Source of the DNA: Alphaproteobacteria bacterium
Lineage (GTDB): Bacteria > Pseudomonadota > Alphaproteobacteria > Sphingomonadales > Sphingomonadaceae
DNA: 64,000 nt
NCBI GenBank assembly: GCA_005883305.1
Contig: VBAC01000001.1
Location: 620,001-684,000, forward strand
Direction: 5' to 3'
The position numbers and the translations under genes are program-made. Within the stretch, counting starts at the first letter, position 1. Every line of letters starts with the position of its first letter. This document shows, in pieces, positions 47,877 to 60,770 of the stretch. The notes under the pieces were generated by a model. That model made no database searches, was not told where the DNA came from, and saw only the letters and a program-made list of their open reading frames with translations.

Positions 47877-48650
47877 TCAGCGACAGATACGGGAGTGTAA
47901 TGCGCGCGTTAGCAGCGCGGCCTCATCAAGGACGGAGAAAAACACGCGATTGATTTTAGACCAATCGCCGTGTTCGTTCAGCGTATTGAGGGCCGAGGCC
48001 AGGGCTTCTCCCCGTCGATAAAAGGCGGGTGCAAGAGCAATCTTTGGAGAATCCAAACCCAAATTACGCGCCAGGGCCGCGTGAACCATCACTCTTGCGA
48101 CCCGGCCGTTGCCGTCGGAAAACGGGTGGGTCATTATCGTGTTGGCAAAGCAATAGACGGGCAGCCCGGGAAGCAACTCCGGCGTTCGAGCGACTCTCTG
48201 CATATTCTGAAGCCAATCATCGACAGACACCAAGGGCCCGAAATGCACGTCCCCCGTGGCCGATTGGCCAATGGCCGGCCCCTTTCGATATACCAGCGGC
48301 CGACCAGCCAGCGCTGATGCCATTTTTAGGGCAGTTGATGCATCCACATCAAGGACACCAAATCGCCCCCAATAGGTGCTGGCAATCGGTTCCATGGCCG
48401 GCCGCAAGAAAAGCGATCGGCACTTCCTCTTCCAGAACGGATTGTCAGCGGCTGGGAATGAGCCTCCCTTCTCCAAAAGCATCAAAGCAACTCTCAATTC
48501 GAGGCCAGCGGTTTCCATCGCACCACTTGGCCATGTCGCATTATCGGAGATGCTTGAGTAGAATCCGTCTGCGACGGCTACTTCATTCGACGTCATCGGA
48601 CGAAGTGGCGGGCAGTTCCAGGTTGGGTGCGATTCTGTTCTTGAAGTCAT
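47877..48650 (-). CDS. Fic-domain protein
   Basis: 257 residues. The Fic active motif is THPFSDGNGRVARVMVHAAL (HPFxDGNGRxxR, His about 175). Fic enzymes usually AMPylate proteins. An upstream helix has WPSGAMETAGLELRV, which resembles the (S/T)xxxE(G/N) inhibitory motif though the last residue is Thr. No separate antitoxin is adjacent. DNA here is visibly more AT-rich than in neighbours, suggesting transfer. It is divergent from the HEXXH gene with a 48-bp gap. Confidence 0.87.
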   Translation of the reverse strand: MTSRTESHPTWNCPPLRPMTSNEVAVADGFYSSISDNATWPSGAMETAGLELRVALMLLEKGGSFPAADNPFWKRKCRSLFLRPAMEPIASTYWGRFGVLDVDASTALKMASALAGRPLVYRKGPAIGQSATGDVHFGPLVSVDDWLQNMQRVARTPELLPGLPVYCFANTIMTHPFSDGNGRVARVMVHAALARNLGLDSPKIALAPAFYRRGEALASALNTLNEHGDWSKINRVFFSVLDEAALLTRALHSRICR

Positions 48651-48698
48651 TGTCTCGTAGCGTATTGTATCGCAATCAAATGGATAGGGGGCGATCCA

Positions 48699-49886
48699 AT
48701 GCCATACCAGCAATCGAATTACCAAGATTCGAACTATCAGGATTCAAACTATCCAGGCGACGGCGGCGGCTCGCCTCCGCCGAATGAAGACCCCCCGTTT
48801 GGCCCTCCCCTTTTGTGGCAGGCGGTTCTAGACGACCTGAGCATCTTCTTCGATGATCTCGAGGCGCCCGTTATCTCTCACGGCGCCGACCAGAACAGCT
48901 ATTACGATGATCATTCCGACACAGCTCCCATGGACTCAATGTGGCTTGAGAAATTTGGGTGGATGCCTCACGTTCAGAGCCAGCCTAGCGTCCATTATTT
49001 CGATTACCTTACCAGCGATGTCGACCCAGAATTCCTGCTGACCGCTTATGGCGGAAACCACTTTGTGGCGAGCTTTGGCCACGGCCAAGTGGACGTTCAA
49101 AAACTGAGTGATGGCTCGACCTTTGCCATGACCCTGAACGGCATCACGGTCTTCGGTACCTGGCACGCCGGGGCGCCAACGGCCATGGACGGGCAGACGA
49201 TTGTCGTAACGGGTGGCCACTGGACGTTCCAGTTTACCGGCTTCGACGCATCACATTACAATGGAAATCCCCCACCTCCTCCAGCGCCACAGGTCGATCC
49301 TTCCGCCGATGCGGCGACGGCAGCGGCAAATCCGGAAGGCGTGGCAGAAGCCCATCGCCAAGCCCTTTCTGCCCAGCTTCACCAACTCTTAGATCAGAGT
49401 GGGGGTCACGCGACCATTACGTTTAAGGGGCCTAATGGCAATGAAACCTTCGATCTTGCCGAGCTGGTCAATATCCTCGACCATTATCACATTGTGGCCA
49501 CGAACGGGACCTATACAAACATTTCAGGCGGCGCGGGGATGGTTCATTCGGATGGCAACGGCGGTTGGGTCACAGAGATCAATCGTGCCCAGCTCGTGGC
49601 CTATGAAACGGCGGCGTTCCATCAACTGGATTTTCTAATTCTTCACGAGGTTGGCCATATGCTGTCGAATGCGTTGAGCTATACTCATACCCAGTTCCAG
49701 AATTGGCTCGACAGCGGCCATACGAGAGAATCTTATATCGGAACTAATGGGTTCAATGGTTCGGACGCCCTGTGGCGCAGTGAGTCCTATTCAAACAACA
49801 TCGCTGCCGCTCTAGAGAATCTAGTCCACATCGATCCTCCTCCACATCCGCCCGGTGGATATGACTATACCGGTCTGCACGGCTAG
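48699..49886 (+). CDS. Protein with HEVGH zinc-peptidase motif and N-terminal SNYQD repeats
   Basis: 395 residues, family not recognised. The N-terminus has short tandem units (QSNYQD, SNYQD, SNYPGD) and a Pro-rich spacer, with no classical signal peptide. The middle (residues 80-190) is beta-like. The C-terminal domain has DFLILHEVGHMLSNALSYTH (HEXXH at 316-320) and a downstream Glu in LWRSESYSNNIA that could be the third ligand. This fits a zincin protease, perhaps a secreted effector or toxin. The base composition is AT-rich, like the divergent Fic gene. Confidence 0.7.
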   Translation: MPYQQSNYQDSNYQDSNYPGDGGGSPPPNEDPPFGPPLLWQAVLDDLSIFFDDLEAPVISHGADQNSYYDDHSDTAPMDSMWLEKFGWMPHVQSQPSVHYFDYLTSDVDPEFLLTAYGGNHFVASFGHGQVDVQKLSDGSTFAMTLNGITVFGTWHAGAPTAMDGQTIVVTGGHWTFQFTGFDASHYNGNPPPPPAPQVDPSADAATAAANPEGVAEAHRQALSAQLHQLLDQSGGHATITFKGPNGNETFDLAELVNILDHYHIVATNGTYTNISGGAGMVHSDGNGGWVTEINRAQLVAYETAAFHQLDFLILHEVGHMLSNALSYTHTQFQNWLDSGHTRESYIGTNGFNGSDALWRSESYSNNIAAALENLVHIDPPPHPPGGYDYTGLHG

Positions 49887-54325: not shown

Positions 54326-54344
54326 GTGCCTGAAGGAGGGCGGG

Positions 54345-55106
54345 ATGGCTGAGCGAAAGGGTCGGAGCGGGAAAGGGATTGCGGGTCGACAGAAGAGGGC
54401 TGGATTGCCGCGCGCCTGCGGCGCTCGCAATGACGGGGTTGGGCCGGAGGCCCGGTTGCAGGCGAACAAGCATCGCGACGTGCAGGTGGCGCGGACGGGT
54501 GGGCGCAAGCTGTTCGACGAGGAGCGGCGGGGCGTGTTTCTCGAATGGTTCGCGGCGACGGCGAACGTGTCGCTCGCCGCCGAGCAGGCCGGGATCAACT
54601 ACAAGACGGCGTTCAGGCACCGGATGAACGACGCCGATTTCGCCGCCGACTGGGACCGGGCGCTGGAGCAGGGGGTGGCGCGGCTGAAGGCCAAGCTGCT
54701 GGAGAGCAAGGCGGCGCCGCGGCGGGGGATCGACGGCGATCTCGACGCGCCGGAGATGGCGGACGTCGATCCGCAGATCGGTCTCGCGATCCTTCGCGAG
54801 AGCGAGCGGCGGCTGGCGGGCTGGCCCAAGGCGGGCGCCGCGCCGCGGGTGGCGACCAATGCTGAGGTGCGGGAATCGCTGGCGGGAAGGCTGAGGGCGT
54901 TTCGGGCGCGGGTTCGGGCGGAGCGGGCTGGGCGGAGCGCTGAAACTCCTCCCCGGGACGGGGAGGGGGACCGCCGCGAAGCGGGGGTGGAGGGGGCCCC
55001 GAACGTGGCCGCTTCACGGGAGTCCGAATTGCCGCCTCCGAATCCGGGCCCCCTCCACCATCCTACGGATGGTCCCCCTCCCCGTGCCGGGGAGGATATT
55101 CAATGA
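54345..55106 (+). CDS. Small terminase-like DNA-binding protein with a repeat-derived tail
   Basis: 253 residues. A basic N-terminus (ERKGRSGKGIAGRQKRAGLP) leads to a HTH-like region: RGVFLEWFAATANVSLAAEQ then AGINYKTAFRHRMNDADFAA, which is the form of phage/GTA small terminase subunits. ATG 54345 is behind GGAGG. The last 50 residues (from SAETPPRDGEGDRREAG) are encoded by the MITE-like repeat at 54948-55095 and are not native. The stop overlaps the large subunit by 4 bp. Confidence 0.72.
   Translation: MAERKGRSGKGIAGRQKRAGLPRACGARNDGVGPEARLQANKHRDVQVARTGGRKLFDEERRGVFLEWFAATANVSLAAEQAGINYKTAFRHRMNDADFAADWDRALEQGVARLKAKLLESKAAPRRGIDGDLDAPEMADVDPQIGLAILRESERRLAGWPKAGAAPRVATNAEVRESLAGRLRAFRARVRAERAGRSAETPPRDGEGDRREAGVEGAPNVAASRESELPPPNPGPLHHPTDGPPPRAGEDIQ
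54948..55095. repeat. MITE-like inverted repeat (CCTCCCC family), copy 3, in the terminase gene end
   Basis: TIRs CCTCCCCGGGACGGGGAGGG / facing CCCTCCCCGTGCCGGGGAGG. It is about 148 bp, longer than the other two copies, but has the same internal GGTGGAGGGGGCC / GGGCCCCCTCCACC hairpin. Its right end supplies GGAGG (55091-55095), 7 bases before the large terminase ATG. Confidence 0.9.
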
Positions 55107-56464
55107 CCGCCCACGATACCGCCGATTTCGGGGCGATGATGCGGGTGGCGGCGCGGATGCTGGAGGGCGAGGCGGCGTGGGCGTGGTATTTTCGCGGGCT
55201 GCCGCCGCCGGTGCTGAGAAGGATCAGCGAGGAATTCTTCGCCTGGCAGGCGCATGGCGGGCAGCAGGAGCCGGCGGCCTCCGCCGGGGCAGGCTCGGGC
55301 CACTGGCGCGTGTGGCTGCTGATGGCCGGGCGCAATTTCGGCAAGACCCGGGCCGGGGCGGAGTGGGTCAGCGCAAGGGCGCGGGAGAATCCGGGCGCGC
55401 GGATCGCGCTGGCCGGGGCGACCCGCGACGAGGTGACCAAGGTGATGATCGAGGGGCCGAGCGGGCTGCTCGCCGTGGCGCGGAGCGACGAGCGCCTGCG
55501 CTGGCGGCCGACGCGGGGCGTGCTGGAATTCCCGAACGGGGCGGAGGCCTTTCCCTATTCGGGCGCGGCGCCGGAAGCGCTTCGCGGCCCCGAGCATCAT
55601 TTCGCCTGGTGCGACGAGCTCGCCAAATGGCGGCGGGCGGAGGCGGCGTGGGACAATCTGATGCTCGGGCTGAGGCTGGGCGAGCGGCCGCGGGCGATCG
55701 TCACCACCACGCCGCGTTCGGGCGCGATCCTGCGGCGCGTGCGGGCGGATTCGGGGACGGTCGAGACGAACGGGACGATGGCGGAGAATGTCCATGCGTC
55801 GGGCGCGTTCGTGCGCTGGGCCGAGGCGGCTTATGGAGGCACCCGGCTCGGGCGGCAGGAGCTGGAGGGGGTGCTGTTCGACCAGCCGGAGGGGGCGCTG
55901 TTTCCGCGGGAGATCATGGAGAAGGGGCGGGTTCAGTTGGGGACAGTTACTAGTAACTGTCCCTTCGGGCGCGTCGTGGTCGGTGTCGATCCGCCGGCGA
56001 GCGTCGAGGGGGCGTGCGGGATCGTGGTTTGCGCTCTTGGCGCGGACGAGATCGCCTATGTGCTCGACGACCGCAGCGTGGCGGGCTTGAGGCCCGAGGG
56101 CTGGGCGCGGGCGGTGGCGGCGGCGGCTCGGGACTGGGGCGCGGACCGGGTGATCGCCGAGCAGAACCAGGGCGGCGACATGGTCGAGAGCGTGCTGAGG
56201 AGCATCGAGGCGCGGCTGCCGGTGCGGCTGGTCAGCGCCAGCCGGGGCAAGGTGGCGCGGGCCGAGCCGGTCGCGGCCCTGTTCGAGAGCGGGCGGGCGC
56301 GGCTGGCGGGGCGGTTTCCGGCGCTCGAGGACGAGCTTGCGGGGCTGACGCTCGCCGGCGGCTATGAGGGGCCGGGCAAGTCGCCCGACCGGGCCGACGC
56401 CCTCGTCTGGGCGATGGCCGAGCTGGCCGCGCCGCGCGCCGAGCCGCGGATTCGCATGCTCTAA
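55103..56464 (+). CDS. Large terminase subunit (phage/GTA type)
   Basis: 453 residues. The ATPase part has Walker A WLLMAGRNFGKTRAGAEW (Lys81) and Walker B EHHFAWCDELAKWRR (Asp-Glu). The nuclease part starts VVVGVDPPASVEGACGIVV with its catalytic Asp, and ends with KSPDRADALVWAMAEL. This is the motor that packages DNA in gene transfer agents and many phages. No portal, protease or capsid gene follows; the reb operon comes next from the other direction. A perfect palindrome interrupts the linker (separate entry). Confidence 0.9.
   Translation: MTAHDTADFGAMMRVAARMLEGEAAWAWYFRGLPPPVLRRISEEFFAWQAHGGQQEPAASAGAGSGHWRVWLLMAGRNFGKTRAGAEWVSARARENPGARIALAGATRDEVTKVMIEGPSGLLAVARSDERLRWRPTRGVLEFPNGAEAFPYSGAAPEALRGPEHHFAWCDELAKWRRAEAAWDNLMLGLRLGERPRAIVTTTPRSGAILRRVRADSGTVETNGTMAENVHASGAFVRWAEAAYGGTRLGRQELEGVLFDQPEGALFPREIMEKGRVQLGTVTSNCPFGRVVVGVDPPASVEGACGIVVCALGADEIAYVLDDRSVAGLRPEGWARAVAAAARDWGADRVIAEQNQGGDMVESVLRSIEARLPVRLVSASRGKVARAEPVAALFESGRARLAGRFPALEDELAGLTLAGGYEGPGKSPDRADALVWAMAELAAPRAEPRIRML
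55940..55963. repeat. 24-bp perfect palindrome inside the large terminase gene
   Basis: GGGACAGTTACT and its exact reverse complement are joined with no spacer. In the terminase frame it adds residues around GTVTSNCP between the ATPase and nuclease domains. It contains a CTAG core and is AT-richer than its surroundings. Confidence 0.9.
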
Positions 56465-56495
56465 AAAGGAAGCGGCGGCTCCGGGGAGCCGCCGC
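56463..56495 (-). terminator. Intrinsic terminator of the reb operon
   Basis: On the minus strand GCGGCGGCTC pairs with GAGCCGCCGC (10 bp, 4-base loop), followed by TTCCTTTTT. It lies 26 bp past the last reb gene. The same hairpin without the T run would be read by the convergent terminase message. Confidence 0.85.
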
Positions 56496-56520
56496 GGGGA
56501 GTAGGGCCGGACCGGGATGA

Positions 56521-56826
56521 TCAGGTGCCGGTGCGGAGGATCTGCGCCAGGCTCTCGGCGAGGCCGACCGAGGCGTCCGCGTCGGCCAGCGTGTCGACGC
56601 TGAACAGCTGGATGACGCCCTGGGTCGTCGCCGCCTGCTGCAGGATGTTCTGCGAGTTCTGGGTGGTGACGGCGTTCTGGAACATCAGCCCGGTCGCCTG
56701 GGCCAGCGACTGGTAGATCGTGCCCATCGCGATCGCGGGGCCGTCGGCCAGGACCTTGACGTTCGACTGGGTGACCGCGTCGGTGACCTGCGGGTTGACC
56801 CGATAGTGCTCCGGATAGTCTGGCAT
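56521..56826 (-). CDS. RebB-family R-body protein (distal copy)
   Basis: 101 residues. NPQVTDAVTQSNVKVLADGP then AIAMGTIYQSLAQATGLMFQ and NAVTTQNSQNILQQAATTQG are the RebB (killing trait) signature. Reb proteins assemble into coiled protein ribbons (R-bodies) that unroll and rupture membranes. RBS AAAGGAA precedes ATG 56826. It is the last gene of the operon. Confidence 0.88.
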   Translation of the reverse strand: MPDYPEHYRVNPQVTDAVTQSNVKVLADGPAIAMGTIYQSLAQATGLMFQNAVTTQNSQNILQQAATTQGVIQLFSVDTLADADASVGLAESLAQILRTGT

Positions 56827-56869
56827 CAGTCTGTTCCTTTTCAAGACGGGGTTGAACGGCCAGCGCGCC

Positions 56870-57181
56870 TCACGAAGACGCCTGGGCAGTGGCAACGACC
56901 TGCTTCACCAGGTCGAGTGCTTCTTTGACGGCAAGGCTCGTTCGCGCGCCGCGTTCGCCATATTCCCTGGTCAGCTCGAGCATCGCGCTCATCGCGTTGA
57001 GCTGATACTGATTGCTTGCCGCGAGCTGGTCCCTGGCCACGGTGGCGACGTGCGCAACCATCAGGCTGGCGAGGCTGACCGCCGGCGTCAGCCCGATGAC
57101 GTCGGCGTTGACGTCGTAGGCGAGGGCTTCGGCAAAGCGGGGATCAATATCGACCATCGGTTCGGTCCCGTCGTTGTTCAT
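56870..57181 (-). CDS. Divergent Reb-like protein
   Basis: 103 residues from ATG 57181 (TTG at 57199 is an alternative). The central text VNADVIGLTPAVSLASLMVA then HVATVARDQLAASNQYQLNA parallels the RebB core: an N-terminal V..D segment, an Ala-rich helix, then a Gln/Asn-containing helix (SNQYQLN versus the SNQHNLN of the proximal RebB). It is more diverged than the two clear copies and may be a variant subunit or assembly factor. Confidence 0.68.
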   Translation of the reverse strand: MNNDGTEPMVDIDPRFAEALAYDVNADVIGLTPAVSLASLMVAHVATVARDQLAASNQYQLNAMSAMLELTREYGERGARTSLAVKEALDLVKQVVATAQASS

Positions 57182-57195
57182 GGGAATAGGACGCC

Positions 57196-57603
57196 TCAAG
57201 GCTTGCCGCGTGACGCGCCGGAGCGCAGCTTCTGAAGCGCGCCGGCATTCTGCTTGACCTTCGCGTCGATCAGGCTCGTGAGGGTCCTGAACCGCGCGTC
57301 CATCAGCTCGTTGACCATCTCCGTCGTTCTCTGCACCGCCCGCTCCTCGCGGGCCATCTCGGCGAGGCGCCGCTCCTCGGCCGCGCTCTCCGAGAGCATG
57401 GGGTCGATCCAGGGCGTGGGCCCGGGCTCGCCCAGCGCGATTTCGCGCAGGCGGTCGACGTCGCGGTGCACCCTGTGGATGAGAACGGCAAGCTCTTCGC
57501 GGAACCTGCCAAGCAAAGCGTGGGTGCGATCGAATGAATGTTCCACCGCGTTCACCCCCGGCGGCGGGGCTTCGCTGGCGCCTCGCGCCGATTCGCTGGT
57601 CAT
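57196..57603 (-). CDS. Coiled-coil hypothetical protein of the reb operon
   Basis: 135 residues, highly charged and helical (RTHALLGRFREELAVLIHRV, EERRLAEMAREERAVQRTTE, MVNELMDARFRTLTSLIDAK). A coiled coil is likely from about residue 75. No family is recognised. It may scaffold or regulate R-body assembly, judged only from its place between reb genes (14 bp before the Reb-like gene). Confidence 0.65.
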   Translation of the reverse strand: MTSESARGASEAPPPGVNAVEHSFDRTHALLGRFREELAVLIHRVHRDVDRLREIALGEPGPTPWIDPMLSESAAEERRLAEMAREERAVQRTTEMVNELMDARFRTLTSLIDAKVKQNAGALQKLRSGASRGKP

Positions 57604-57646
57604 GGCTTTGTTCCGTTCAGGATCGAGGAGCAGTGGCGGCCGCGGG

Positions 57647-58498
57647 TCATTCGTTGGCCGGCGGATCGGGCCAGTTGGCGCGGCGATTGTAATCGAGGGC
57701 GAAGACCGTCTCGCCCCGGGCCCGGCGGACGCTGATCGACAGCCGGGTGAGGACGAAGACCGTGGCGAAGGCGGCGACGCAGCGAACGGCGGCCGGCTTC
57801 CACAGCAATTGCCAGACCCAATCCGGCCCGCCCATCAAATTGGCGCCGAGGGCCCGGCCGCCATAGGTGTCGTCGACCGGGGCCAGCGCCAGCGCACGCG
57901 ACATGTAGAAGCTGCAGACGTCGGCGATCGAGCTGGTGTCGTCGTTAAGGGTGAAGATGGGCTTGCTGCCGTGCCTTCGGGTTTCCGGCTTGGGCGCGTG
58001 CACGAGATCGTTGGCGACCCGCGAGATCACTCCGAACGAATTGAAGGCGAAGGTCTGGCTGATCTCCAGCCGATCGTCGATTCGGCCGAGGTCGATCGAG
58101 GCGGCGCCCCCGTCGCGGCCGAGAATGAGCGGCAGATGTTCCGCGGGCAGGATGTCGACGGTGAGCTGGGGAAGGTCCTCGTTCTGGCCGAAGCCGAAGA
58201 TCGCGCAGAGGCCGTCGGTCGACTGGGTGGAGACGACCATCGCCGGAACCGGCTCCCTCTGCCGGGTGTGGAGGCTGGCGCGGAACAGGTGGCCGATGGT
58301 TTCGATCTCGGGATAGATGCACAGGACGCCGTCCCCGTGCCAGTCGGACGCGGCGCCCGCCCGAGCGCCGGGCCGATGCGCGATCCTGGGCCCGGCCTGG
58401 GGATCGCTGGTGTCGACGGCGATCGGCTTGAAGACGAACCGGCTGGACAAGCCCTCCGGTTCGGGAAGGCCGGGGACGTTGAACGGGATCACGTTCAT
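57647..58498 (-). CDS. Hypothetical protein of the reb operon
   Basis: 283 residues. No signal peptide. The N-terminal half is beta-rich (GVLCIYPEIETIGHLFRASL, PAMVVSTQSTDGLCAIFGFG), followed by ISQTFAFNSFGVISRVANDL. A single hydrophobic stretch near the C-terminus (AAVRCVAAFATVFVLTRLSI) could be a membrane helix. No family recognised. ATG 58498 is behind AGGAG. It is the largest protein of the operon and a candidate for a membrane dock or a switch of R-body extension. Confidence 0.7.
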   Translation of the reverse strand: MNVIPFNVPGLPEPEGLSSRFVFKPIAVDTSDPQAGPRIAHRPGARAGAASDWHGDGVLCIYPEIETIGHLFRASLHTRQREPVPAMVVSTQSTDGLCAIFGFGQNEDLPQLTVDILPAEHLPLILGRDGGAASIDLGRIDDRLEISQTFAFNSFGVISRVANDLVHAPKPETRRHGSKPIFTLNDDTSSIADVCSFYMSRALALAPVDDTYGGRALGANLMGGPDWVWQLLWKPAAVRCVAAFATVFVLTRLSISVRRARGETVFALDYNRRANWPDPPANE

Positions 58499-58602
58499 TG
58501 CGCTTTCTCCTGTGATCGCGGGCGGGGCTGGAAGGGTCGGGACTGCGCGCTCGCGCCGGCGGCGAGCGGTGCGGGCGCCGCGCGGCCTTTCGGCGCGCGG
58601 CC

Positions 58603-58983
58603 TCACGCGAACACCGTCTTGGTTTCGGCGGCCTCGGTGATGATCGCCCCGGCGAAGACCGGGAGCTCGCCCATCAGCTCCTGGATCAGGACGAGCGTCG
58701 CCGGGCCTGCGGGATTGTCTTCGAGCGACTCGTTGAGCGCGCGGGCGGTGGCGGGAACCATGATCATCTCCATGCTCTGCAGGAAGCTGCGCATGTCCTG
58801 GATCATCATCGCGCCGGCCTGGTCAGCGAGCGCGTTCGCGCCGACCTGCATGCCGGTCGGCAGGATCTCGCCCGAAAGGCCCTTGGTCGGATCCAGGACC
58901 TTGCGATTGGTGAACCGGACCGCTTCCTGGACCATCACCATGCCCGGCGTGCGGCTGTCGGAGCTTGGATCGTCGAGGCTCAT
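58603..58983 (-). CDS. Hypothetical protein of the reb operon (Reb-associated)
   Basis: 126 residues. GMVMVQEAVRFTNRKVLDPT then GEILPTGMQVGANALADQAG and AMMIQDMRSFLQSMEMIMVP: helical, Met-rich and small like Reb subunits, but without the clear RebB signature. It follows the proximal rebB by 38 bp. It may be a second structural component. Confidence 0.65.
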   Translation of the reverse strand: MSLDDPSSDSRTPGMVMVQEAVRFTNRKVLDPTKGLSGEILPTGMQVGANALADQAGAMMIQDMRSFLQSMEMIMVPATARALNESLEDNPAGPATLVLIQELMGELPVFAGAIITEAAETKTVFA

Positions 58984-59021
58984 TCAAACTCTCCCGGTGT
59001 TGGAAGCAGGGACCGCGCGCC

Positions 59022-59243
59022 TCAACTGCCGCTCTCGATCATCTGGATCGCCTTGGCGACGATGGTGGCGTTGAGCTGGTTGAGGTTGTGCTGATTGCTG
59101 ACCGCGTTCTGGCCGGCGATGCCGTTGGCGCTGGCCATGATCTGGTAGAAGGCGGCCATCGCCTGGGCCGGCGCCTCGGCCAGCACCTTGACGTTGGTCT
59201 GGGTGATGGCGTCGGTGATCTGGGCATTGACATGTTCCGGCAT
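59022..59243 (-). CDS. RebB-family R-body protein (proximal copy)
   Basis: 73 residues. NAQITDAITQTNVKVLAEAP then AQAMAAFYQIMASANGIAGQ and NAVSNQHNLNQLNATIVAKA match the RebB family and align closely with the distal copy (TDA[VI]TQ[ST]NVKVLA shared). It lies 28 bp after the sigma-factor gene. The ribosome site GGGAGCC precedes the ATG. Confidence 0.9.
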   Translation of the reverse strand: MPEHVNAQITDAITQTNVKVLAEAPAQAMAAFYQIMASANGIAGQNAVSNQHNLNQLNATIVAKAIQMIESGS

Positions 59244-59271
59244 GAGCGGCGGCTCCCTGGTTCAGACAGGT

Positions 59272-59910
59272 TCACGAGCTTAGACGCGCGGGCCGGCGGT
59301 CCGTGACGCCCTCGCGCGAACAGGCGGAAAACCAGCCGGCAAGCGCCTGGCGGAGCTTCTGCACCCGCTTGCGCGCGCCCGCCTCGCTGATCCCGAGGGA
59401 CGGCGCGATCTCGCTGTAGGACCGATGCTCCAGGAAGCGCTGGACGAACAGCTCGCGCGCCTCCCCGGAAAGGCGGTCGAGCAATGCGTCGAGCGCGGCG
59501 AGGGCCTGGCTCGTCGCCAGTTGGGCGTGGACGTCGGTTCCACAGGACGGAAGCCGCCAGCTGTCGGCTTCCGAGTGAACGTCGACGGTCCTGTCGTAGA
59601 GCAGCGCGCCGCGGCGCGCCTGGCGATATTCGTCGATGGCAAGATTGCGCAAGACGAGGAAATAGAGCCCGCCGACTTCCCGCAGCGGCCGGTCGTGCCT
59701 GGCGACGAAATCGAGGATCCGCGCCGTCGCCCGGGATACCAGATCCTCGCCGCGATCGCGGTCGCCCCGGAAGAACGAGGCCGCGCGCGACACGAGCGCG
59801 GGATATGATTGCGTCCAGGCGAGGCGCACCGCTTGGCGGTTTTCTTCGATGATGAGCTCGAGCGGCTTCGGCGGCGCCGTATCGCTGTCGAGAAGTTCCA
59901 GTTCGAGCAT
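59272..59910 (-). CDS. ECF-like sigma-70 family factor
   Basis: 212 residues from ATG 59910 (TTG at 59949 possible). Region 2: AASFFRGDRDRGEDLVSRAT then YFLVLRNLAIDEYRQARRGA; region 4: ALDALLDRLSGEARELFVQR then SYSEIAPSLGISEAGARKRV. As the first gene of the reb operon it probably directs its own transcription and that of the R-body genes. No anti-sigma gene is adjacent. Sigma factors have been linked to reb clusters in Pseudomonas. Confidence 0.85.
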   Translation of the reverse strand: MLELELLDSDTAPPKPLELIIEENRQAVRLAWTQSYPALVSRAASFFRGDRDRGEDLVSRATARILDFVARHDRPLREVGGLYFLVLRNLAIDEYRQARRGALLYDRTVDVHSEADSWRLPSCGTDVHAQLATSQALAALDALLDRLSGEARELFVQRFLEHRSYSEIAPSLGISEAGARKRVQKLRQALAGWFSACSREGVTDRRPARLSS

Positions 59911-60097
59911 AGGCCGTTCCCGAAAAAGGGCAGGCCTATCAGTCGACAACGCGCGCGATTGTTACCGGGGTAACATGAGGCGATGAAAAACCGTACGAAG
60001 GAGGGGCGGAGTTTCTATCATAATCGGTACAAAACAAGACGCTGGACAAAAAGAGCGACAATATGGTTGAACTGCGCGGGGACAGGATAGGGGGAAC

Positions 60098-60770
60098 GTG
60101 CCTGTGACTGACGATCGATTCGAATTCATCTCAACCATGCGGCGGAGCGCACTGTTTTCGTCCATGTCGGACTCCGAAATGAAGTCAGTATTCTTCCAGT
60201 CGAAAAAATTTTAATAAAGGCGATGTCGTCCAGTCTTTCGGCGCGGCCGCGAGGACGATCCTCCTCGTCCATTCTGGCTGGCTGATACAGCGCCTCATCC
60301 ATCATGACGGAAACGAATTGATCGTTTCGTTTCGCGGGCCGGGAGAGATAGCCGGTCTGCCCGAATCTGTCATGTCCTTGCCGGCGGAAAGGGAGACGCT
60401 GGCCGGGGACGATGGAAGCGCGCTCTCGATCCCGTGGCGATCTCTCGCCGAGGTCGCCGGCGCGGACCTTTGGGCGCGGATCGCCCGAGCGCTCGCGGAG
60501 GAGCAGCGGGAGCTGCTGCGCAAGCTCGAATCGGTGTCCTTCCACTCGCTCGAGGCGCGGGTCGCGGTCTTTCTGCTCGACATGCAGCGGCTCGAGCGGC
60601 GGACGCCGTCGCTGAGGATGAGCCAGGCGACCATCGCCCAGGCGGTCGGGGCGAGCCGGCCGAAGGTGAACAGGTGCCTGAAGGCGTTCGCGCGGCGCGG
60701 CGCGATCGCCTATCGCGGCGGCGAGCTGCCCAGCGTGCAGGACCGTGCCGCGTTGATCCGACTGATTTAG
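60098..60770 (+). pseudogene. Crp/Fnr-family regulator interrupted by a +1 frameshift
   Basis: Two frames together give a normal Crp/Fnr protein of about 224 residues. From GTG 60098 (behind AGGGGGAAC) the first frame reads MPVTDDRFEFISTMRRSALF then SSMSDSEMKSVFFQSKKF and stops at TAA 60212-60214. The next frame continues NKGDVVQSFGAAARTILLVH then SGWLIQRLIHHDGNELIVSF, and includes the HTH MSQATIAQAVGASRPKVNRC. The break is at AAAAAATTTT, one base too many. A start at TTG 60318 would give only 150 residues lacking half of the cyclic-nucleotide domain. It is divergent from the sigma gene. Confidence 0.8.

Follow-up and report, generated by a model that had tools for sequence, protein, structure and literature searches.

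A 64,000-nucleotide stretch of the genome of an alphaproteobacterium of the family Sphingomonadaceae (contig VBAC01000001.1, positions 620,001 to 684,000; here called the window) contains a genuine R-body operon of known type that combines its parts in an unusual way and includes a candidate operator and two orphan proteins. R-bodies are coiled protein ribbons known in bacteria that damage the cells hosting or eating them. Judged by sequence comparison, the operon is hybrid: its ribbon module is of the sort called type B here, while a sigma gene with a Crp/Fnr regulator gene and an upstream box is otherwise seen on the other side of the tree of first RebB proteins. There is good reason to think that this chromosomal R-body operon is driven by the regulator and the sigma factor and forms a ribbon in the way proposed below. 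The locus bears on how R-bodies are switched on and on the roles of their non-Reb partners. Its features, with their coordinates in the window and protein lengths in amino acids (aa), are as follows.

56472..56495, minus strand: intrinsic terminator candidate, a 10-bp stem and then a T-rich tail.
56521..56826, minus strand: RebB protein 2, 101 aa, family PF11747.
56870..57181, minus strand: 103-aa protein, likely a degenerate Reb-like protein, with a weak match to the degenerate-Reb profile.
57196..57603, minus strand: 135-aa orphan (P0004), in the slot of the c1 family (about 105 to 215 aa) by position and rough length only.
57647..58498, minus strand: 283-aa orphan (P0003), in the slot of the c2 family (about 260 to 345 aa) by position and rough length only.
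58603..58983, minus strand: 126-aa protein (P0002) of the p2 family, which is encoded directly after the first RebB gene.
59022..59243, minus strand: RebB protein 1 (RebB1), 73 aa, a short Reb directly after the sigma gene, family PF11747.
59272..59910, minus strand: gene for an extracytoplasmic function (ECF)-like sigma factor, 212 aa from ATG 59910; the open frame extends to TTG 59949.
59960..59975, no strand assigned: palindrome TGTTACCCCGGTAACA, the predicted operator of a reb-linked Crp/Fnr regulator.
60098..60770, plus strand: divergent Crp/Fnr-family regulator gene (RebR/RcgA-like), with an HTH_Crp_2 domain and a split frame.

An earlier note on this DNA had described an R-body operon of seven minus-strand genes that is headed by an ECF-like sigma factor and ends at a terminator. 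All seven genes are present at the positions claimed, and the description is borne out by both RebB profile matches, the gene order, and the locus of Ruegeria pomeroyi. RebB1 and RebB protein 2 match PF11747 with E values of 1.7e-20 (73 bits) and 6e-26 (91 bits), respectively, both far above the Pfam cut-off of 24 bits, and the common motif TDA[VI]TQ[ST]NVKVLA proposed for them is exact (TDAITQTNVKVLA and TDAVTQSNVKVLA). With these genes at 56521-56826 and 59022-59243, the locus has the clustered RebB-family structural proteins, at least two in number, that are one mark of an R-body locus; the other, coiled and extendable ribbons that SDS does not dissolve, is predicted. No further match to PF11747 was found at E 0.001 in the 3.03-Mb genome. 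The 103-aa protein matched neither the Pfam RebB family nor our own Reb profile (E 87); it is likely, not proven, to be Reb-like because it weakly matched (E 0.003) a profile built from six degenerate Rebs of other loci. The intergenic gaps within the operon are only 14 to 104 bp, so the seven genes are likely carried on one transcript. The top minus-strand terminator candidate lies at 56495-56472, directly 3' of the RebB 2 gene; two weaker minus-strand candidates are within the sigma gene, and the region has 9 terminator candidates versus 3.3 in shuffles. Both RebBs (E 1.9e-15 and 1.7e-22) also match PHROG 32040, a family in the PHROGs library of phage proteins; a RebB-like gene is therefore catalogued in viruses of prokaryotes.

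The sigma protein scores above the cut-off of the NCBIfam sigma70-ECF superfamily model (TIGR02937, E 2.1e-15, residues 47-203) and of Pfam Sigma70_r4_2 (E 1.8e-9), and these two matches cover regions 2 and 4 of an ECF sigma factor; its match to Sigma70_r2 (E 7.9e-4) is below the Pfam cut-off. ATG 59910 is more likely to be its start than TTG 59949 because the palindrome of the regulator occupies 59960-59975 and the annotated Ruegeria sigma gene starts 56 bp past its palindrome. Matches to the sigma profile occur in 49 of 110 reb loci, the window included. In the sigma tree, from which locus L033 (with the gene in two frames) was omitted, the window has a very long branch (2.47) that joins another long branch, which makes its placement unsure.

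The palindrome TGTTACCCCGGTAACA, about 50 bp before the sigma start, fits the pattern TGTYAC-N4-GTRACA exactly and is the only such site in the 3.03-Mb genome. This pattern, or box, was first noticed in palindromes upstream of the window operon, the Ruegeria operon, and a Lysobacter locus. In total, 13 exact sites were found in 1,658,158 bp of the 110 reb loci, 12 before a sigma gene and 1 before a RebB gene. With one mismatch allowed, the number rose to 21, of which 16 precede a sigma or RebB start. When the spacer was varied, the other twelve lengths from 0 to 12 gave no sites, except for 2 with N5. A box with at most one mismatch precedes the sigma gene in 15 of the 16 sigma loci with a Crp gene versus none of the 33 without one; the sixteenth Crp locus (L160) has a two-mismatch site just past its Crp gene. 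This association makes the box a well-supported candidate for the operator of the reb-linked Crp/Fnr regulator, and a candidate operator defined in this way predicts which reb loci have a common regulator. RebR, a Crp-Fnr protein of Azorhizobium, is described as binding the palindrome GT(A/G)(A/C)C-N4-G(T/G)(T/C)AC upstream of reb, the half-sites of which have the same spacing (PMC5527310, available text). No mention of the box or of the view that two modules are combined was found in literature searches or in the available text of PMC8322103, PMC5527310, PMC3583457, and PMC13430693, and either may have appeared in print earlier.

The Crp/Fnr gene is part of the reb system. The earlier interval for the operon, 56463..60770, takes in this divergent plus-strand gene (60098-60770), which had not been named. 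The protein contains HTH_Crp_2 (Pfam, E 2.8e-13), and the gene has the traits of the RebR/RcgA type, namely a Crp-type helix-turn-helix and a sensor domain encoded at a reb locus, apart from an intact reading frame; binding to the reb promoter is predicted from the box association. The main frame is open at 60183-60770, and a short N-terminal frame at 60098-60214 ends where an A/T tract lies (60203-60212). The main frame aligned with all five of the other reb-linked Crp proteins tried (z 13.9-19.0); the N-terminal piece gave z values of -0.4 to 1.5 against the same five and is unsupported alone. The split may reflect a sequencing or assembly error, a recent mutation, decay, another start codon, or frameshifting or slippage.

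The earlier note had recognized no family for the 283-, 135-, and 126-aa proteins. This holds by sequence for the first two, which are orphans; the 126-aa protein has a clear family. In phmmer searches, it matched the gene that immediately follows the first RebB in loci L088 (E 1.9e-16) and L090 (8e-16), and it also matched the post-RebB genes of L087, L085, L096, L091, and others. Its comparison with the p2 profile by hhalign gave 5e-21, a value that none of 60 shuffles equaled. The 126-aa protein is thus no orphan, judged by these matches, and belongs to a family that follows the first RebB in many Bacteroidota and Pseudomonadota loci. Longer proteins in the post-RebB slot of sigma-type loci also match the p2 profile, mostly over their C-terminal part (4e-8 in L162, 1e-6 in L095, and 0.0016 in L094 of Pseudomonas mangiferae). 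The matches of L146 (0.006) and L048 (0.01; score 24.0 versus a best of 20.5 in 20 shuffles) are borderline, and that of L107 (0.036; score 20.2 versus a shuffle best of 19.4) is at chance. The 126-aa protein has a common family with genes of 212 to 323 aa (open frames) that follow RebB in sigma-type loci. Group 2 synteny of Raymann is defined by the presence of HP2.1 and HP2.2 (about 205 to 220 aa). No relatives of P0002 were found in plasmids at E 0.01. An iterated P0002 profile spread into RebB itself, and that run was discarded as proof that P0002 is a Reb; the p2 profile was then rebuilt from slot members alone.

Genome contigs scanned with an alignment of RebB gave 515 relatives, of which the best 80 were kept; these are the loci closest to the RebB1 of the window and not a random sample, and genes were counted in them by profile cut-offs and match strand alone. 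The gene sets of reb loci vary among organisms. The sigma gene is present in 38 of the 80 loci, 14 of which also have a Crp gene. The p2 gene is present in 49, the small c1 gene in 38, and the larger c2 gene in 32, and c2 is missing from 7 of the 38 loci with c1. The c1/c2 loci are mostly from Chryseobacterium and other Bacteroidota, with some from gammaproteobacteria and alphaproteobacteria. Sigma, c2, and c1 occur together in a single locus of the 80 (L090, Rhodobacteraceae). The type-B ribbon module, defined here by a type-B RebB1 followed by p2 and by c2 and c1 proteins, is frequent in Bacteroidota and mostly lacks a sigma gene. The window has its RebB1 and p2 but, by sequence, not its c2 and c1. 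In the RebB1 tree, built from 52 of the 80 loci chosen by us (21 type B and 31 with sigma, with Ruegeria left out) plus the window, the window falls within a group of 23 of the 53 rows that consists of the 21 type-B loci, L134, and the window, with a support of 100/100 over 75 columns; the columns are few, and the window branch is long. L134, a Magnetovibrio contig, encodes sigma, RebB, p2, a protein without a significant c1 match, a Reb-like protein, and RebB. The operon is regarded as a hybrid because its RebB1 groups with type B while sigma with Crp and the box is otherwise found on the other side of the tree. A wider proposal is that TGTYAC-N4-GTRACA is the common operator of Crp-regulated R-body operons in alpha-, beta-, and gammaproteobacteria, joined here to a ribbon module that usually lacks sigma, and that the 283- and 135-aa proteins are lineage-specific ones replacing c2 and c1 as new assembly factors or cargo. 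This proposal as a whole is speculative and rather doubtful.

The two orphans occupy the slots of c2 and c1, and in neither case was family membership found by sequence, with P0003 falling within the null distributions and P0004 near them. For P0003 against c2, 7, 20, and 12 of 60 shuffles scored at least as well in three hhalign modes, and a position-specific scoring matrix (PSSM) in four settings gave z values of 0.1-0.5 against 300 shuffles and 0.0-0.7 against 600 natural proteins; four left-out c2 members gave z values of 33 to 61 in the same test. Local pairwise scores against c2 members were nonsignificant. With global pairwise scoring, 6 of 11 members ranked within the top 5% of 200 shuffles; the members are related to each other, and the profile test disagreed. 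Short collinear motifs alignable by eye were not counted. The structure predicted for P0003 alone had a mean predicted local distance difference test (pLDDT) score of 34.5 and was unusable. Its strand-then-helix layout, like that of the c2 model, was matched by 17 of 1,000 block shuffles, a number that rose to 346 of 1,000 when the halves were kept. For P0004 against c1, the hhalign result was reached by 5, 11, and 3 of 60 shuffles, and the PSSM, run without a left-out control, ranged from no signal to, in the best setting, 22 of 300 shuffles and 17 of 600 natural proteins. There is thus no sequence support for P0003 in c2 and at most a weak lean toward P0004 in c1. No relatives of P0003 were found in viral contigs, plasmids, genome contigs, or PDB sequences. 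Three other matches among 398 genomes of the phylum (E 0.003-0.0095, one with an internal stop) and one among 26 genomes of the genus (E 0.025) were taken as chance. P0003 also had no match to the large proteins of other reb loci (361, 463, 532, and about 609 aa). The two proteins are either very diverged or replacements. The slot comparison separates the proteins found across Bacteroidota and Pseudomonadota (the 126-aa family, c2, and c1) from those seen only here and gives a short list of assembly or cargo candidates.

The c2 family itself (gene after p2 in L085-L164, e.g., 8777-9664 of L098) is modeled as a strand-rich domain followed by helices, with weak START/Bet v 1-like matches, and among 24 members scanned no Pfam family matched more than one. 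The large proteins at other reb loci vary by lineage, with 463 aa in Ruegeria (L048), about 360 aa in the Azospirillum type (5 loci), and about 609 aa in 4 loci; iterated searches failed to join these three (L048, L049, and L038-L042). A 532-aa protein of L043 was compared with P0002-P0005 only.

Several described systems resemble the operon. The Ruegeria pomeroyi DSS-3 megaplasmid (NC_006569, L048) likewise has Crp, sigma, RebB, four hypothetical genes, and RebB, with a box TGTTACGCGTGTAACA before sigma. In contrast to the window, its Crp gene is on the same strand and a further RebB is present; its post-RebB gene, the weak p2 match given above, is longer (270 aa), and its 463-, 100-, and 207-aa proteins match none of P0003-P0005. 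L090 (contig CANLSM010000026) has the same order of sigma, RebB, p2, c2, c1, Reb-like, and RebB; unlike in the window, no Crp gene or box was found in the stretch examined, and pairwise local tests gave no match of its c2 and c1 to P0003 and P0004. By its description in the available text of PMC8322103, Pseudomonas aeruginosa PA14 (rcgA, fecI2, rebD, rapA, rebP1, and rebP2) also has a regulator, a sigma factor, a short Reb, an accessory protein, variable genes, and longer Rebs, in an order deduced here from locus-tag numbers, with no tag seen for fecI2. By these numbers, rapA occupies the p2 slot after the first Reb, a correspondence of position; RapA is reported to colocalize with RebP1 and to be found with R-bodies (PMC8322103, same text). 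In the PA14 relative P. mangiferae (L094), RebB1 is on the other side of the tree. Azorhizobium caulinodans (rebR and AZC_3781-3788), likened by its description in the available text of PMC5527310, shares the Crp-Fnr regulator and the palindrome with a 4-base spacer, whereas the term "sigma factor" is absent from the main text of that paper. The same text reports activation of reb by the Crp-type regulator in symbiosis and a non-reb gene that is essential for R-bodies.

In the proposed mechanism, the Crp/Fnr regulator (gene at 60.1-60.8 kb) would bind the palindrome at 59960-59975 and start transcription of the seven-gene operon, which regulator and sigma factor would drive jointly. In PA14, rebP1 promoter activity, seen in 0.26% of cells, is described as requiring both RcgA and the sigma factor FecI2 (PMC8322103, available text). 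A self-encoded sigma factor would provide positive feedback, leaving a minority of cells fully on; this feedback and an on/off pattern like that of PA14 are suggested by analogy because the sigma gene heads the operon on which its product presumably acts. The two RebBs would polymerize into the ribbon, with the 103-aa Reb-like protein and the 126-aa protein as minor or accessory components, and the 283- and 135-aa proteins may have assembly roles or be passengers. If the ribbon uncoiled in an acidic compartment of the grazer or host, it would rupture membranes and could so kill the cell.

The following points weigh against this interpretation. No ATG, GTG, or TTG occurs in the main regulator frame before 60318, and there may be no full-length protein as assembled. 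Only two canonical RebBs are encoded; by our reading of the listing, fewer than three Reb-profile matches were also counted in 14 of the 80 loci, and the rest have at least three. The third half-site base of the box differs from the RebR consensus, and five of the one-mismatch sites are located away from reb, sigma, and crp starts. The Fisher value for the association of box and Crp gene (1e-11) is overstated because the box was noticed and counted in one locus set, the 16 Crp loci are related (six are from Lysobacter and four from Chromobacterium), and the Crp profile derives from the window and Ruegeria sequences.

The alternative that the locus is a decaying, silent one, with a broken regulator, diverged or replaced genes in two slots, and no R-body, draws on the split regulator frame and on the rarity of RebB in related genomes, with the genome of the window counted in each sample: 2 of 26 in the genus and 1 of 149 in the family sample. 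However, all seven operon frames are open, with G+C contents at third codon positions (GC3) of 0.80-0.97 versus 0.90 in the adjoining terminase gene; the palindrome matches its pattern exactly; and the difference at the A/T tract may be an assembly error. Decay is considered unlikely. That the ribbon module serves a purpose not directed at eukaryotes, for example as a lysis device against competing bacteria, is very improbable; the locus names no target, and scans of Pfam, NCBIfam, and PHROGs recognized no toxin family among the operon proteins, which neither supports nor excludes a toxin, but the cases described in the available text of PMC8322103 and PMC5527310 concern eukaryotes, namely, Paramecium, plant cells, and Caenorhabditis elegans.

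Recent transfer of the operon is unsupported by its base composition, with a G+C content of 67.1%, close to the 68.1% of the window. In wider samples, RebB was present in 14 of 346 genomes of the order and 15 of 385 of the class, the genome of the window again counted. Among the matches listed between the operon DNA and the genus set of 26, the longest outside its own genome is 79 bp and lies in a RebB gene of the second genome that has RebB. The distribution is compatible with old transfer as well as with repeated loss.

The operon adjoins a stand-alone TerS-like/TerL terminase pair (54339-56464, plus strand). The genome has TerL matches (10 in number) at eight places and phage portal matches at two. 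Insertion of the operon into a gene transfer agent cluster was unsupported; three of the four relatives fetched were examined, and in them unrelated housekeeping or signaling genes come after the terminase pair. Farther away, the gene for a Fic-domain protein (PF02661, E 2.6e-5; 47877-48725, minus strand) overlaps head to head that of a 395-aa protein (48699-49886, plus strand), which has no Pfam match and contains HEVGH, a sequence resembling a zinc protease motif.

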